Virus record (IMG/VR): IMGVR_UViG_3300023257_000106
Coordinates: 1 to 24,800 of that record
Reading direction: 5' to 3' (one strand)
DNA length: 24,800 bases
Source: a virus
Part shown: positions 1,721 through 24,800 of the stretch, piece by piece
How the letters are laid out: every line of letters starts with the position of its first letter
Numbering within the stretch: the first letter of the stretch is position 1
Notes under the pieces: generated by a model
Seen by the model: only the letters and a program-made list of their open reading frames with translations
Databases searched by the model: none
Told to the model about the DNA's origin: nothing
Program-made: the position numbers and the translations under genes

Positions 1721-4168
1721 TTATGAATGCCACTTTCTGAGTTTAGCTGCACGTTCTCTGTGGTATTTGTCTACAAATCTTTGTTTTACTTCTCCTAGTG
1801 AATCTTTGGGGTATGAGGGTGTGTCTGTTTCTGAGGGGGTTGTTACCATTTCTAGGATATAGGATAGAGCGTCTACTCTGTCGTCGTGTCTGCCTGGGTA
1901 GTTACATATTTGGTCTACTAGGCCCTTTTGAGTGCAGCCTGTGTATGTGCCGTCTGTGGAGTGGAACTTGATTCTGCCTAGTTTGATGAATGGTTGTAAG
2001 GCTAGGATTCTTCTTTCTTTAGCGTTTAGCTTATTACCTGAGTGGAGTTCTGTTACGAAGAAGTTAGTATGTCCACCCTCTTTACGTTTAGTGTCTAAGT
2101 ACCATTTGAGGGTATGTTGATATGCGTCACATTCTATGCCTAAGGGGTTAGGATGCCATGTATCTGCATGTCTATATATTTCATCTACTATTCTATCTGT
2201 TGTTAGATGATCAGAGGTTATGTCTGCTACGTGTATATTACTCTCTGTATCTGTACCTGCGGTGATTATGACTGTCTCGTCTGCGTCAGGGTCTAATGAC
2301 TTGGCTGGGTCTACTGCTGTGCAGAATCTTAGGTTGGTGGGTAGTTTGTCGTAGTATTGTATGTCCTCTAGCTTGAAGTGACACATGTCGTCTGGTAGGG
2401 GGTTGTTCTGGAACTCTTGTTGGAAGGCTACTGGAGCTACGTCACGGCGCATTAGGAGGTTCTCTGTGGGGTATTGCTCAGGCCATACGCTGTACTCTAC
2501 ACCTTCTTTAGTTGTTTCTAGTGCTCTGTATAGCTTCCTGAACCAGTTTACTCTGTCGCTGTATTGGGTATTGATTAAGGTGCTTATGAAGCCTAGAGGG
2601 TGTAAGACTGTTCCTGCGATGATCATGGTGCCTTTAGCGTGTAAGGAGCCGAACCACTCGCTAGAGAATTGATGGGTTATCTTATCTCTTTGTTCTTTAC
2701 TTCTTACGTTTATGTCGTTCTCTATATCATCTAGGATTAGCCAGTGAGGTCTTTCTCCTCTATATCTAGTATCTATACCATAAGGTGTCATCTTGGTGTT
2801 CTTGGTTGTTACGATACCTTCTACTGAGCCTTGACCTATTAGGATACTGCCGAAGTCTTGTATTATCATAGAGTTATGTTTAAGCTCTCTTATAATAACT
2901 GTCATTCTTCTCTTCTGTATGTTCTTTATAGATGATCCTACTAAGGCTATTGTACAGTTGTTCTTTGTAAGTAATAGGTATAGTGGAAGAAAGACTGAGA
3001 ATATCATAGAGTTGTGTGTTAGGAGATAATCATCTGTTATGTATCTACCATCTTCTGCTTCTACTGTTATACATCTGCCTAACGCTGCGCTGTAGGGTTC
3101 AATTGCTGTTATGGCGTTCTTTAGTGTTCTACTCCCCTGCCATCTATCCGCTTTCCTTGAGAGTCTTGCTGGGTTGATATCCTTAGATAGCTTGCAGGAT
3201 ACTCTATAGGACTGAAACCAATGGGTTGAATATTTGTTTACCCGTGTTTGCTGAGAACTTACAAGGGCTGTACCGCCAAGGCTGCGTACTAGTTCTACCA
3301 CTCCGTCTATTAGGTTCTTGTCCTTGTTACAAAAGCTAAAGGTTTTGCCATCTGGGGCTACTGTACCATCTGTGTCTATTAAGCCTTGCAATAGAGCGTG
3401 TCGCTGGGTTATGCTGCCTATTAGGTAGGCTTTGGGGATATGCTTATTGTTAAGAACTTCTGCCTTTCTTAGGTCTTTAGAGAGTCCTTTTATCTGGTAC
3501 CTATACTGTGCTGATTTGGATTTAGTATTAGGGTATGGTATGTATGATAGAATTTCTGGGTCTGCTGTTGTGAGCTGTCCTTCTCTAGATGTTCCATCTC
3601 CTAGCCATAATCCTAGCGTATAGGGGTCTACTGGTAGATGCTGTTCTGGTAAGTCTACTGGAGCTGGGTTTGGAAGGAAGTGTCTATATTCTGTATATGT
3701 TTCTCCACTGCGTTTATCCAATCGTGGGGCCTTGTAGTTCTGTGCTAGTTCTTGTGTTTCTTTAGTTATTTCTCTGTTCCCTGTGTTGGAGGGTGTTTCT
3801 ACAGTCCATAGGTGCTCTGCGTTACATAGGGTGCTACGGCCATCACGGGTGGATACCTTATACAAGTCCATCTTGCTTATTGGATGTAATGCTATAACTG
3901 CGGTTGGAGCACCGTTGGAGCCTATAACCTTATCCCCTACACTGAGGCTTCCTATCGTAGACCATCCATCTGGGGTGAGTACCTTGGAGTTAAGGCTTTG
4001 GGCCTTAGCATGTCCACGTGGAGCTGCTATAACCATACCCTCTCCTGCAAAGATAGCTTGCATCCACTCATCATGCATAGGAGCAAAGGGGGCTTCACAA
4101 TACTCTTCTAGGTAATATAAGCAGAAAGCTTTAAATATTTCCCATTCCTTGTATTGTGGTTTATCCAT
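1721..4168 (-). CDS. terL: Terminase large subunit interrupted by an intein
   Basis: TerL is the ATP-driven packaging motor and headful/cos nuclease. The 815-residue precursor contains a 331-residue intein at residues 56-386; the spliced protein would be about 484 residues, a normal TerL size. The Walker A loop APRGHAK (49-55) is separated by the intein from its serine (S387), so ATPase activity should need splicing. Walker B is LILDDIE around D480-D481. The C-terminal RNase H-like nuclease shows D620 (TAVDPAKS), E679/D681 (GIECDAY) and D762-D766 (HDDRVDAL). An in-frame stop (TAA, 4174-4172) directly precedes the ATG, fixing the start. No clear Shine-Dalgarno is seen at normal spacing; GAGGA lies about 25 bases upstream. 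The gene is transcribed from the promoter at 4330-4302 and is followed with no gap by the portal gene. Confidence 0.93.
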   Translation of the reverse strand: MDKPQYKEWEIFKAFCLYYLEEYCEAPFAPMHDEWMQAIFAGEGMVIAAPRGHAKAQSLNSKVLTPDGWSTIGSLSVGDKVIGSNGAPTAVIALHPISKMDLYKVSTRDGRSTLCNAEHLWTVETPSNTGNREITKETQELAQNYKAPRLDKRSGETYTEYRHFLPNPAPVDLPEQHLPVDPYTLGLWLGDGTSREGQLTTADPEILSYIPYPNTKSKSAQYRYQIKGLSKDLRKAEVLNNKHIPKAYLIGSITQRHALLQGLIDTDGTVAPDGKTFSFCNKDKNLIDGVVELVRSLGGTALVSSQQTRVNKYSTHWFQSYRVSCKLSKDINPARLSRKADRWQGSRTLKNAITAIEPYSAALGRCITVEAEDGRYITDDYLLTHNSMIFSVFLPLYLLLTKNNCTIALVGSSIKNIQKRRMTVIIRELKHNSMIIQDFGSILIGQGSVEGIVTTKNTKMTPYGIDTRYRGERPHWLILDDIENDINVRSKEQRDKITHQFSSEWFGSLHAKGTMIIAGTVLHPLGFISTLINTQYSDRVNWFRKLYRALETTKEGVEYSVWPEQYPTENLLMRRDVAPVAFQQEFQNNPLPDDMCHFKLEDIQYYDKLPTNLRFCTAVDPAKSLDPDADETVIITAGTDTESNIHVADITSDHLTTDRIVDEIYRHADTWHPNPLGIECDAYQHTLKWYLDTKRKEGGHTNFFVTELHSGNKLNAKERRILALQPFIKLGRIKFHSTDGTYTGCTQKGLVDQICNYPGRHDDRVDALSYILEMVTTPSETDTPSYPKDSLGEVKQRFVDKYHRERAAKLRKWHS
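3011..4003 (-). mobile_element. Class 3 (WCT-type) intein with LAGLIDADG homing endonuclease inside terL
   Basis: Residues 56-386 of the TerL precursor form an in-frame intein. It begins with alanine (AQSLNSKVLTPDGW) rather than Cys or Ser, and ends LLTHN followed by S387. It carries the class 3 triplet: Trp121 two residues after the block B histidine (NAEHLW), Cys366 at block F position 4 (GRCITVE) and Thr384 just before the terminal His-Asn. In class 3 inteins the block F cysteine, not residue 1, attacks the N-terminal splice junction. Two LAGLIDADG helices, LGLWLGDG (185-192) and LLQGLIDTDG (259-268), sit about 75 residues apart, so the homing endonuclease looks intact. The insertion lies in the conserved ATPase P-loop between Lys55 and Ser387, a typical conserved insertion site. 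Boundaries come from restoring the Walker A motif and are firm; the mechanism class is inferred from residues. Confidence 0.9.
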
Positions 4169-21083: not shown

Positions 21084-21685
21084 TGAATAAGAGAGATAAG
21101 ATTATAGAGGCTATAGATAGGGCAAATAAAAGTTATATCCTTACTCCAACAGGGGTGGAGAACATAGCTGATGCTATTATGGCTATTGATGAGGATAAGC
21201 CACCAAAGCTTACCTTTCAGGGGGTTCCTATAGTATTTGATAAAGAGCTAAAGGAGGGGGAATATGGGTATCTTGAGAGAATGGGTGATGGGGTAGTGTT
21301 TGTAGTTCAGGATCTTCCTAAGAAGCCTAACGAATATGACATTAAGCAGCTATCAAGAATTTCACATATCCCCGTTGATATGCTACCTAAGACTCTGGTT
21401 GAGGCTTACTGTCTTGGTAAAGACCACCGAGGGGAATCCCCCATGTATGAGGAGCCTATACCTGAGACAGCTCTTCCTGAGTGGGAGAAGAGGTTTGATG
21501 GGATAAAGGATATATTAGCATCAGGGAAAGGCCCATTCGAGCAGCCCTTCGTTGAGGGGTATCGTGTAGATAAGGTTAAAGCCTTCATACGTGAGGAGTT
21601 TAAGAGGATGGGTGATGATATCAGAAGTAGACTTCCGGTTGATGATGATGAAATATCCGAAGCTTTAAAGAGTAGAGGTATATAG
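21083..21685 (+). CDS. Acidic protein of unknown function (200 aa)
   Basis: The ATG overlaps the preceding stop and follows GTAAGGAGGAG (21066-21076). It begins MNKRDKIIEAIDRANKSYIL; the middle has beta-type segments (LERMGDGVVFVVQDLP) and the C-terminal third is helical (VKAFIREEFKRMGDDIRS). It is acidic and cytoplasmic, with no catalytic motif. It is followed with no gap by the next gene. I do not recognise the family. Confidence 0.75.
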   Translation: MNKRDKIIEAIDRANKSYILTPTGVENIADAIMAIDEDKPPKLTFQGVPIVFDKELKEGEYGYLERMGDGVVFVVQDLPKKPNEYDIKQLSRISHIPVDMLPKTLVEAYCLGKDHRGESPMYEEPIPETALPEWEKRFDGIKDILASGKGPFEQPFVEGYRVDKVKAFIREEFKRMGDDIRSRLPVDDDEISEALKSRGI

Positions 21686-22406: not shown

Positions 22407-22541
22407 ATGGAGAGCTGTAAGTACTTGATATCATTAGGGGTCGTTATTGGAGATGCTCTCACAAGGCCCTACAGTGAGTTGGTGGCATTACAGTGGGTGC
22501 TAATACCCTTTAGGAGAAACAATGACAGCCAGATATTATAA
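22407..22541 (+). CDS. Possible small protein (44 aa)
   Basis: ATG 22407 follows TAGGGGT (22396-22402). The product begins MESCKYLISLGVVIGDALTR and ends RRNNDSQIL. It overlaps the next gene by 20 bases. There is moderate evidence only: a fair ribosome site and filling of an otherwise empty stretch. Confidence 0.35.
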   Translation: MESCKYLISLGVVIGDALTRPYSELVALQWVLIPFRRNNDSQIL

Positions 22542-22674
22542 CAAGTTAAATAAGAAGTATTGTATATGTAATATGGTGTGGGCTGCTGTAGTTACCTTGT
22601 GTATGTTAGGAGTTATTTATATAGTTAATACTATTTATAGTATAGTAGTTAATAGTATAGTGGAAGGAGTATGA
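22522..22674 (+). CDS. Small membrane protein, holin candidate (50 aa)
   Basis: TAGGAGAAACA (22511-22521) precedes ATG 22522. The product has a basic N-terminus (MTARYYNKLNKKYCIC) and a hydrophobic region from about 18 to 48 (WAAVVTLCMLGVIYIVNTIY and on), one long or two short helices. Its place just before the spanin genes makes it the best holin or pinholin candidate in the window, but the sequence resembles no holin family that I can name. Confidence 0.55.
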   Translation: MTARYYNKLNKKYCICNMVWAAVVTLCMLGVIYIVNTIYSIVVNSIVEGV

Positions 22675-22675
22675 T

Positions 22676-22912
22676 ATGAAGGTACTGTGTCCTACAGCTA
22701 CAAGAGATGAGTTATTATATACCCACCTATCAGATGGTAAGTGGGTAATAGCTACTACAATGGATTGGATATGGACTATAACAGGGGATCAACAGATAGA
22801 GCTTAGAGCAGAGAAGGGATATGTTATATGTGATACACTAGAAGGACCTTTATATACCTTATTAGAATCTTACTCCGTTGGGGAGTATAACGTAGGAAAG
22901 GAGGAGGGATGA
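22676..22912 (+). CDS. Small protein of unknown function (78 aa)
   Basis: AAGGAG (22664-22669) precedes ATG 22676. The product begins MKVLCPTATRDELLYTHLSD and is beta-rich (GKWVIATTMDWIWTI, RAEKGYVICDTLEG), with no membrane segment. It overlaps the inner spanin gene by four bases, so it belongs to the lysis operon by position, but no function can be assigned. Confidence 0.65.
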   Translation: MKVLCPTATRDELLYTHLSDGKWVIATTMDWIWTITGDQQIELRAEKGYVICDTLEGPLYTLLESYSVGEYNVGKEEG

Positions 22913-23199
22913 TATTCGCAGCATCAATGTTAAAGTCATTAGTTATAAACAAGTATACTATAATAGGTACAGTTATTATATGTATAGCTATAGGAGCATA
23001 CTTTAAAGGTAGAACAGATATGCAACATAAGTACCAAAGGAAAGCCTTAAAGGAGGTGGTATCATATGCGTGTGAGATGGATAGGATTACTAATACTTAT
23101 AAGTCTATGCCCGTTAATGCAGCTAGGATGCTCTCAGGCCAGGTCAGCAGTCACTATAGGGGTGAGATACCCACTAATGCGACCAATAAAGATAAATGA
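22909..23199 (+). CDS. Inner-membrane spanin (Rz-like i-spanin)
   Basis: A 96-residue protein with an N-terminal signal-anchor (about residues 15-32, KYTIIGTVIICIAIGAYF), then a charged periplasmic domain (GRTDMQHKYQRKALKEVV). The outer spanin gene starts inside it in the +1 frame, the classic Rz/Rz1 arrangement. With the outer lipoprotein it would fuse inner and outer membranes in the last lysis step. It is shorter than lambda Rz (153). AAGGAGGAGGG (22898-22908) is the ribosome site. Identification rests on topology and gene nesting, since spanins share little sequence. Confidence 0.72.
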   Translation: MIFAASMLKSLVINKYTIIGTVIICIAIGAYFKGRTDMQHKYQRKALKEVVSYACEMDRITNTYKSMPVNAARMLSGQVSSHYRGEIPTNATNKDK

Positions 23200-23311
23200 G
23201 AATGGTTGTATATGTGACGATATGCTGAGGGATGCTGCTCTTAACAGTAAGGACTTGCAGGAGCTTATTGATAAGATGTATGCCCTGCCATGCGTGAAGG
23301 AGGTACGATGA
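23066..23311 (+). CDS. Outer-membrane spanin lipoprotein (Rz1-like o-spanin)
   Basis: An 81-residue protein with a signal sequence MRVRWIGLLILISLCPLMQL and lipidated Cys22 (QLGC). Gln at -3 is unusual for a lipobox, Gly at -1 is usual. AAAGGAGGTGG (23049-23059) precedes ATG 23066. The first 134 bases overlap the inner spanin in another frame; the gene then runs 112 bases beyond it, so it is overlapping rather than fully embedded. The mature part has a CICDDM and a C-terminal helix (LQELIDKMYALPCVKEV). Its last bases overlap the protease start. Confidence 0.7.
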   Translation: MRVRWIGLLILISLCPLMQLGCSQARSAVTIGVRYPLMRPIKINENGCICDDMLRDAALNSKDLQELIDKMYALPCVKEVR

Positions 23312-24252
23312 ATAAGATATCTAAGTTTACAGCAGCAGCGATAGGTATGTTAGTAGGAGTAACAGCTATGGATGTAACAGTAGGTAAGGATGTTACTATA
23401 AGACAAGCTAAGAAGGCTATGGGTGGTGTTATAGCTCTGTATGATAGTCTACAAGATAGTATTATAGTACATGAGAATGAGAAGGATATAGAACCCTTTA
23501 CAGGCAGAGCAGAGTATATAGGAGATATACCTGAGAGGATATTCAATAGGATGTATGATAGTGTAGTAAGGATTAACTTTGTACATGATAGAGGATTGGG
23601 TAATAAGTCATGTGATGAAGCTGGCACATCATGTGGTACAGGTACAGTTATATACTCTACAGATACTCATTCATATATACTAACCAATAAGCACATAGGA
23701 GGAGCAAGCCTTATGTGTGGTCAGATGATAGAATCACCACAGCACATGGGCCTTATCAAAGGCTCCACAGTGTTTGTATCAACACAAGCAGACCTAGCCC
23801 TTATAAGAGCAGAACGTCCACTGAGGGTATCACCACTGTCCGATAAGCCCCTATCCCTACATGACACCACAGCTGTAGTAGGCTGTCCATGGTGTCTAGA
23901 GTGGTTTACTGATATAGGCTTTGTATCTAAAGAGAACCAGATGGTATTAGGCTCATGGGCAGAGCAGTTAGCTTCACATACCTATCCAGGTAATAGTGGT
24001 TCACCTGTCTTTAATATGCAAGGTGAGCTATCAGGTGTTATCTTTGCAGGTATAAGAGGTATGCATAATATAGGATATAACATCCCTTGGGAGTCTGTTA
24101 TGACATTCTTGTCAGAGGCAGGGTTCCCCGATAACCTACCCACCACCCCAGTAACAGGAAGAAGGATACTTATACGCAGTACTACAGACACTAACCAACA
24201 ACTAGGTACTCCCTACTTCCCTCTAGCCCCCTCCCCTATAGGAGATGAATAG
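23308..24252 (+). CDS. Exported trypsin-like serine protease
   Basis: A 314-residue protein of the trypsin/DegP-like (S1) fold. The catalytic triad is H129 (YILTNKHIGG), D162 (ADLALIRAE) and S230 (YPGNSGSPVFN). An N-terminal hydrophobic segment (residues about 6-20, KFTAAAIGMLVGVTA) looks like a signal peptide or anchor, so the enzyme likely acts in the periplasm. No PDZ domain follows; the end is proline-rich. Residues 30-100 are a charged helical pre-domain. AAGGAGG (23297-23303) selects ATG 23308. It overlaps the outer spanin stop and ends four bases before a terminator, so it closes the lysis operon. Cys pairs (C102-C109, C193-C196) could form disulfides. Substrate is unknown. Confidence 0.85.
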   Translation: MNKISKFTAAAIGMLVGVTAMDVTVGKDVTIRQAKKAMGGVIALYDSLQDSIIVHENEKDIEPFTGRAEYIGDIPERIFNRMYDSVVRINFVHDRGLGNKSCDEAGTSCGTGTVIYSTDTHSYILTNKHIGGASLMCGQMIESPQHMGLIKGSTVFVSTQADLALIRAERPLRVSPLSDKPLSLHDTTAVVGCPWCLEWFTDIGFVSKENQMVLGSWAEQLASHTYPGNSGSPVFNMQGELSGVIFAGIRGMHNIGYNIPWESVMTFLSEAGFPDNLPTTPVTGRRILIRSTTDTNQQLGTPYFPLAPSPIGDE

Positions 24253-24255
24253 CAA

Positions 24256-24277
24256 AAGCCCCCAGTTACGGGGGCTT
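24256..24277. terminator. Bidirectional intrinsic terminator
   Basis: AAGCCCCC (24256-24263), a six-base loop AGTTAC and GGGGGCTT (24270-24277) form a perfect 8-bp GC-rich stem between convergent genes. On the minus strand it is followed by a TTTT run from 24257 (CTTTTGC); on the plus strand by ATTTG. Confidence 0.85.
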
Positions 24278-24285
24278 ATTTGTAT

Positions 24286-24741
24286 CTACTTATCCATATA
24301 CTTATATATCTTATCAGGCATTCCATCCTCCATCCACTCTTCCACGTTGAAGCATGGACAGGTCTTATGCTTATTATACTCTCTATGACCTACTACAGGC
24401 ATAACACCATAAGTCATGAATATACCTTCTATAACTATCTTAAGCTCCTTAAGCTGCTCACTATTAAACTTATACATCTTATTACCATCATCACCACCTA
24501 TCATACATATACCTATAGAGTGTGAGTTATGTCCTTTACAATGAGCACCTACAGTATTAATATCTCTACCCCAACCTACCCTTCCATCTGATTCTATAAC
24601 TATATTATAACCACACCCATCCCAGCCTCTAGCCTTATGCCATCTGTCAATATCCTTAATGGTGATGCCATGTCTACTAGCACTACAATGAATGATTATC
24701 TCATTAATACTCCTCTTATCACTTACGCTTCTCTTCTTCAT
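24286..24741 (-). CDS. N-acetylmuramoyl-L-alanine amidase (T7 lysozyme-like endolysin)
   Basis: A 151-residue zinc amidase that cleaves the bond between muramic acid and L-alanine in peptidoglycan, the same size as T7 gp3.5 (151). Zinc ligands H18 (IIIHCSA), H119 (VVGHREY) and C128 (KHKTCPCF), with Y45 (GCGYNIVI) and K126, correspond to T7 H17, H122, C130, Y46 and K128. No signal peptide, so release needs a holin. In T7 the homolog also inhibits the phage RNA polymerase; no such polymerase is seen here. It is on the minus strand, convergent with the lysis operon across a terminator. Its ATG overlaps the 3' end of an upstream gene. Confidence 0.95.
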   Translation of the reverse strand: MKKRSVSDKRSINEIIIHCSASRHGITIKDIDRWHKARGWDGCGYNIVIESDGRVGWGRDINTVGAHCKGHNSHSIGICMIGGDDGNKMYKFNSEQLKELKIVIEGIFMTYGVMPVVGHREYNKHKTCPCFNVEEWMEDGMPDKIYKYMDK

Positions 24742-24800
24742 TGTTACCTACTTTCTTTATACGCCTGTTACGCCAAGCTATAGCAGAGTCTTTCCACCCC
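24719..24800 (-). CDS. C-terminal end of an unidentified protein
   Basis: The minus strand from the window edge is open and ends at TGA 24721-24719. The visible 26 residues read GWKDSAIAWRNRRIKK, then VGNNEEEKRK, a basic-to-charged tail. It overlaps the amidase start by 23 bases, suggesting translational coupling. Too little is visible to name it. Confidence 0.5.
   Translation of the reverse strand, partial: GWKDSAIAWRNRRIKKVGNNEEEKRK

Follow-up and report, generated by a model that had tools for sequence, protein, structure and literature searches.

By sequence, the phage DNA analysed here (the window: 24,800 nucleotides, positions 1 to 24,800 of IMG/VR record IMGVR_UViG_3300023257_000106) encodes a putative serine protease with a trypsin-like fold, a catalytic triad and an export-type N terminus, placed in an operon and translationally coupled to a putative spanin pair, and similar genes recur in the lysis cassettes of distant phages. 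We propose that the window protein is an accessory lysis protease, a reading that we regard as evenly balanced. That the protein is active as an enzyme and located in the periplasm, when it acts and what it cuts are what we infer from here on.

Lysis locus of the window phage

The window had a 100% match to IMGVR_UViG_3300025669_000009 (43,985 bp). Because the two ends of this contig share 127 bp (window 21549-21675), the parent genome was probably assembled in full and as a circle. Its + strand carries the replication genes (DNA polymerase, RecA-like, RuvC). The - strand has those for terminase, portal and capsid, for a lytic-transglycosylase internal protein, for a TM protein of 70 aa and for an amidase endolysin. 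Close isolate relatives were not found for the portal and the DNA polymerase. The large terminase gene (window 1721-4168, - strand, 815 aa) has an intein-type insert N-terminal to the Terminase_6C domain, and the insert carries a homing endonuclease (PF05204 1.4e-8, LAGLIDADG_3).

At its end, the + strand operon encodes, from 5' to 3', a 78-aa ORF, the i-spanin, the nested o-spanin and the protease (Table 1). The last three make up the span 22909-24252 singled out by a first-pass annotation of the window. No family was found for the 78-aa ORF in profile searches, and the 50-aa ORF had no PHROGs or other family match.

Table 1 Features of the protease-spanin locus in the window, and of a gene next to related proteases in rhizobial phages
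Feature	Coordinates	Strand	Evidence or remark
50-aa single-TM ORF, 5' of the cassette	22522..22674	+	Candidate small lysis/holin-type membrane protein; hydrophobic segment; L002 974-1126
78-aa ORF	22676..22912	+	No predicted membrane segment; stop overlaps i-spanin ATG (ATGA)
Putative i-spanin, 96 aa	22909..23199	+	N-terminal TM, short periplasmic part; weak match to PHROG 1026
Strong Shine-Dalgarno (AAAGGAGGT) for the nested o-spanin	23050..23058	+	Sequence
Putative o-spanin lipoprotein, 81 aa	23066..23311	+	Cys22 in MQLGC; nested in i-spanin in another frame, running past its end
Exported trypsin-like (HtrA-type, PDZ-less) serine protease, 314 aa	23308..24252	+	H129, D162, S230
N-terminal export segment MNKISKFTAAAIGMLVGVTA	23308..23370	+	Hydrophobicity; modelled as helix; possible cleavage after A20
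Hairpin, bidirectional intrinsic terminator between two convergent operons	24256..24277	both	Terminator search and folding
Endolysin, N-acetylmuramoyl-L-alanine amidase (Amidase_2)	24286..24741	-	PF01510 4.2e-16; PHROG 822 8.8e-47
70-aa TM protein gene, window part	24719..24800	-	Whole gene, L002 3171-3383
Multi-TM protein after the trypsin (rhizobial phages)	L137 5788-6213; L138 4507-4932; L136 5693-6118; L143 4714-5190		

The i-spanin had a weak match to the Rz-like spanin PHROG 1026 (E=0.047). Among the window ORFs of 50-160 aa, only the o-spanin had both a Shine-Dalgarno and a lipobox, its lipobox (MQLG-C) being atypical; no such ORF arose in 60 dinucleotide shuffles. An o-spanin nested inside the i-spanin is the classical Rz/Rz1 layout. 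All three starts, of the i-spanin, o-spanin and protease, are preceded by a strong Shine-Dalgarno. The protease gene overlaps the o-spanin stop, as the first-pass annotation had stated, and does so by exactly 4 nt (ATGA); the 78-aa ORF ends on the i-spanin ATG in the same way. The terminator that the annotation had placed right after the protease gene was also recovered, as a hairpin with a fold of -18.6 kcal/mol (z=-3.1).

Beyond the hairpin lies the endolysin gene, convergent with the protease operon. The gene for the 70-aa TM protein sits 5' of the amidase gene and overlaps its start. This protein on the late strand is a likely holin candidate; family searches, PHROGs included, gave no match for it. 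We see the window system as a known lysis cassette type with an added protease. It resembles the lambda-type Rz/Rz1 cassette in having a putative i-spanin with a nested o-spanin lipoprotein, and differs from it by the protease and by the splitting of the lysis genes over two convergent strands.

The protease gene truly starts at 23308 (GAAGGAGGTACG-ATG) and not at 23290, the position given by the ORF caller; the resulting 314 aa agree with the S230 numbering of the first-pass annotation. The full His-Asp-Ser triad claimed there is present, in order and with a GNSG motif. Matches to Trypsin_2 (PF13365, E=7.6e-13, 49.9 bits, cut-off 27.6) and to PF00089 (26.7 bits, cut-off 20.6) put the predicted trypsin-like identity far beyond chance. 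An alignment of 24 viral proteins showed no variation at H129, D162 and S230, and the triad was kept in all 34 members of an overlapping set that includes the window protein. An export segment was found in most of these 34, a set obtained by a profile search for distant viral relatives. In the window protein, the N-terminal export signal noted earlier corresponds to a hydrophobic segment which, by eye and by hydrophobicity, looks like a signal peptide.

The AlphaFold2 model had a confident core (pLDDT mostly >90) with a predicted chymotrypsin-like fold, and Foldseek matched it to DegP, DegS-deltaPDZ and the HtrA1 catalytic domain (E about 1e-13, TM-score by target up to 0.82). By sequence comparison too, the best solved relatives were HtrA/Deg proteases (DegP/HtrA). 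Profile searches detected no PDZ domain, only ~45 low-confidence residues following C-terminal to the protease domain, and the HtrA model TIGR02037 scored 45.9 bits, far below its cut-off of 416. Because the PDZ domain is absent and the HtrA models stay far below their cut-offs, the protein is trypsin-like with an HtrA-type catalytic domain, and not an HtrA by definition. It shares with the HtrA/Deg proteases (DegS, DegP, HtrA1 catalytic domain) the trypsin fold, the His-Asp-Ser order and export, but it lies in a phage operon with spanins. The HtrA-type fold and the DegP/HtrA relatives would suit a periplasmic quality control protease that, like DegP, sustains viability under infection-induced envelope stress; the missing PDZ domain and the low TIGR02037 score argue against this role, which we consider very unlikely.

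Close relatives of the window protease were restricted to the parent genome in viral_contigs, with none in phages at 1e-5 and none in genome_contigs. Its match to PHROG 9683 (E=8.6e-11) covered residues 150-270 only. When 44 viral records (the parent and 43 amidase relatives) were searched with PF13365, only the parent gave a match, so the protease is not tied to the window amidase family. A prohead (head maturation) protease was ruled out by the export segment, the trypsin fold and the location, the gene being with the spanins and away from the capsid genes (L091 2343-4320). The CARD-NLR/LypABC trypsin systems were also rejected: they are host-encoded and multi-gene, and such partners are absent here. 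Four weak matches listed as phage (MT835589, MW462191, MT837774 and MT835582) resemble bacterial chromosomal sequence and were used solely as distant rows in the alignment and tree. Three of them (MT835589, MT837774, MW462191) carry bacterial chromosomal genes, e.g., HtrA with PDZ-type C-terminal parts, despite their phage label, and are likely host contamination.

Linkage of exported trypsins to lysis genes in phages and prophages

At the level of gene order, the linkage between protease and lysis genes is recurrent and not unique to the window phage. A survey of phages for spanin-protease linkage, suggested by the first-pass annotation, gave the same ATGA layout in two contigs, L218 and L219 (IMGVR_UViG_3300025247_000003 and 3300025281_000010), and an Rz/Rz1 cassette in L199 and L200. 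The order in L218/L219 is XhlA-like, endolysin, i-spanin, nested o-spanin, ATGA and protease, and their proteases, distantly related to that of the window, start on the o-spanin stop. The L218 i-spanin matched PHROG 1026 at 7.1e-5 and its protease PHROG 9683 at 8.5e-44. These two loci were missed by the homology probes, spotted by eye and confirmed with PHROGs, and stand outside the lysis-linkage counts below. Although they share the putative i-spanin, nested o-spanin, ATGA and exported trypsin with the window, their endolysin is in the same operon and their protease belongs to an alphaproteobacterial family across a 100/100 branch of the protease tree.

Other cassettes were built differently. 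L199/L200 had a SAR-like lysozyme as endolysin, Rz, Rz1, an XhlA-like gene and the protease. In L151 a 3TM-holin-like gene is coupled to the protease by a 4-nt overlap, and in L112 the protease adjoins a 3TM holin. Sulfitobacter phage pCB2047-C encodes an endolysin, a holin, a 3TM-holin-like protein, an XhlA-like “hemolysin” and a protease with a clear signal peptide. The rhizobial phages AP-16-3, NV1.1.1, RHph_X2_25 and 16-3 have an endolysin, a TM protein, 3TM-holin-like and XhlA-like genes and then an exported trypsin, with ~0.5-2 kb from the last lysis-type gene to the protease in 16-3-type phages. In RHph_TM3_3_14B, lysozyme, Rz-like, Rz1-like and XhlA-like genes are ~2 kb or more upstream of the protease. 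In L093, L114 and L243, trypsins fused to SLH-type domains (checked by Pfam in the first two) have holin and endolysin genes close by, which may be a Gram-positive form of the linkage.

The rhizobial proteases, used as queries, gave 80 viral loci; the Sulfitobacter type and others came from a second scan. At 60% identity, the rhizobial-type loci and the Sulfitobacter locus (L145-L225) formed 28 clusters; a same-strand lysis gene was found upstream of the closest member within 5 kb in 23 clusters, and a lysis gene within 1.5 kb in 18, these counts not being independent, as clusters within one family share synteny by descent, and no p-value being claimed. For the remainder of the second scan (16 clusters), one (L227, on the same contig as L112) had a 3TM holin immediately downstream, and the other 15 gave no lysis gene with the probes used. 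In bacterial genomes the family was present in Hyphomicrobiales (Chelativorans, Rhizobium, Hoeflea, Ensifer, Agrobacterium and others). Among the best 20 of these loci, 15 had same-strand lysis genes upstream, within about 4 kb, and for this reason they are probably prophages.

The catalytic His and Ser were present in all 81 family proteases, with Asp as the third residue in 76 and Glu in five. An N-terminal hydrophobic segment was found in 80 of the 81 and a lipobox in seven. The 16-3 group (L137, L140, L143) has the Asp to Glu change (TEIAIL). Just 3' of the exported trypsin, rhizobial phages encode a conserved multi-TM protein of ~141-158 aa, which by eye resembles MotA/ExbB/TolQ (Table 1).

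In the protease tree, the alphaproteobacterial family, including L218, was split from a group with the window, Sulfitobacter, L112 and SLH-type proteins by a branch of length 1.25 (100/100). The bootstrap had not fully settled, and the window protein was on a long branch and not firmly placed. Lysis-linked proteases were spread over several separate lineages. The linkage recurs across distant lineages, since linked proteases fall on either side of the 100/100 branch, as does the spanin-ATGA-protease layout itself.

Proposed role in lysis

Gram-negative phage lysis is described in three steps, by holin, endolysin and spanin. We propose that the protease would be made from the spanin transcript, exported by Sec to the periplasm and folded as an HtrA/DegS-type trypsin domain that lacks the regulatory PDZ module. 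Late in infection, once holin and amidase have opened the inner membrane and peptidoglycan, the protease would cut envelope proteins that still link the wall to the outer membrane, or that hinder the spanins in some other way, and would thereby help the spanins to complete the disruption of the outer membrane. The lysis-associated role put forward in the first-pass annotation gains support from the other phages in which the same linkage is predicted. Its narrower form, that the protease severs protein links between outer membrane and wall, is tentative, and the substrates suggested in that annotation (Lpp-like tethers, lysis factors, defence proteins) are guesses. Early expression of the protease is possible, because its operon is on the strand of the replication genes, opposite the endolysin.

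The exported protease beside endolysins in many cassettes would also fit the removal of host periplasmic inhibitors or defence proteins (lysozyme/endolysin inhibitors, envelope antiphage factors), the gene being near the lysis genes since both act late in the periplasm. Periplasmic lysozyme/endolysin inhibitors exist. However, the linked endolysins are very different (Amidase_2, Amidase_3, M23 and several lysozyme-like types), which makes a single inhibitor target unlikely, and no defence link was seen; we judge this explanation unlikely.

The protease could instead regulate lysis, cleaving a spanin, an antiholin or a membrane-tethered endolysin to set the timing. Its tight coupling to spanin or 3TM-holin-like genes points in this direction, as do the SAR-like lysozymes (with an N-terminal hydrophobic segment) in the L199, L207 and RHph_TM3_3_14B cassettes. 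But the window amidase sequence has no N-terminal membrane anchor, and the partners vary between cassettes, some being without spanins, which leaves a regulator quite improbable.

As an accessory lysis protease recurrently built into cassettes, the protein would represent a fourth lysis activity and would give a function to PHROG 9683, an annotated but unassigned family. The recurrence in distantly related phages points to protein cutting as an additional step, so far overlooked, in the exit of some phages from bacteria. More generally, many dsDNA phages, especially of Alphaproteobacteria, might have a dedicated proteolytic lysis step, with an exported trypsin repeatedly recruited into holin/endolysin/spanin cassettes to sever outer membrane-wall protein links, beyond the action of endolysins and spanins; we put this forward as a possibility that is more doubtful than the lysis role itself. 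The idea is directly testable in laboratory strains, because cultured phages (Sulfitobacter pCB2047-A/C, rhizobial 16-3 group) carry the protease.

Known relatives and exported trypsins away from lysis genes

The protein family is already catalogued, as PHROG 9683 (“protease”, category other) and PHROG 11383, and single genes are annotated “protease”. The open-access papers that we searched neither describe exported trypsins in lysis cassettes, nor assign these proteins to lysis, nor mention the recurrent linkage. The earlier statement that known lysis cassettes have no secreted serine protease therefore holds for the papers searched, but not for the sequence record, where alphaproteobacterial phages and prophages commonly have cassette-linked exported trypsin genes, annotated only as “protease” (e.g., SUBG_00019 of Sulfitobacter phage pCB2047-C). 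The window locus, for the first-pass annotation the best candidate for an undescribed system, is therefore no one-off system of that kind.

PHROG 9683 and the proteases of pCB2047-A/C, 16-3, AP-16-3, NV1.1.1 and RHph_X2_25 are, like the window protein, exported single-domain trypsins at or near the 3' end of a lysis cassette. The pCB2047/16-3-type proteases are only distantly similar to it (18-27% in the A2 and A4 alignments), and they follow 3TM-holin-like/XhlA-like genes, whereas the window protease comes after a nested spanin pair, with the endolysin on the other strand.

In other phages, exported trypsin genes stand apart from lysis genes; the fold therefore has wider uses, and the lysis linkage is frequent, not universal. 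In a non-lysis lineage the exported trypsins adjoin portal/terminase-type genes (L095, L104, L115, L120, L231, L236, L246). Non-lysis accessory positions of exported trypsins, and the lipoprotein nature of some relatives, would be in line with a moron-like accessory protease of the envelope that attacks surface receptors, for superinfection exclusion or for keeping progeny off debris. The repeated position downstream of lysis genes in separate lineages is unexpected for a general moron, and we rate this option as improbable, a shade below the regulator. With regard to an accessory lysis protease, those relatives that are lipoproteins would have the enzyme anchored at a membrane.

In Pootjesviridae, an exported trypsin is encoded close to the capsid gene and on the opposite strand. 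Marine T4-like contigs (L098, L119, L123, L124, L132, L133) encode a Cys-containing exported protein directly 5' of the exported trypsin. In two of these proteins tested, Pfam gave no match. They have ~180-230 aa and conserved Cys motifs (CYQGTxRW..HCFCVLD), and are a possible partner, inhibitor or substrate of the trypsin.
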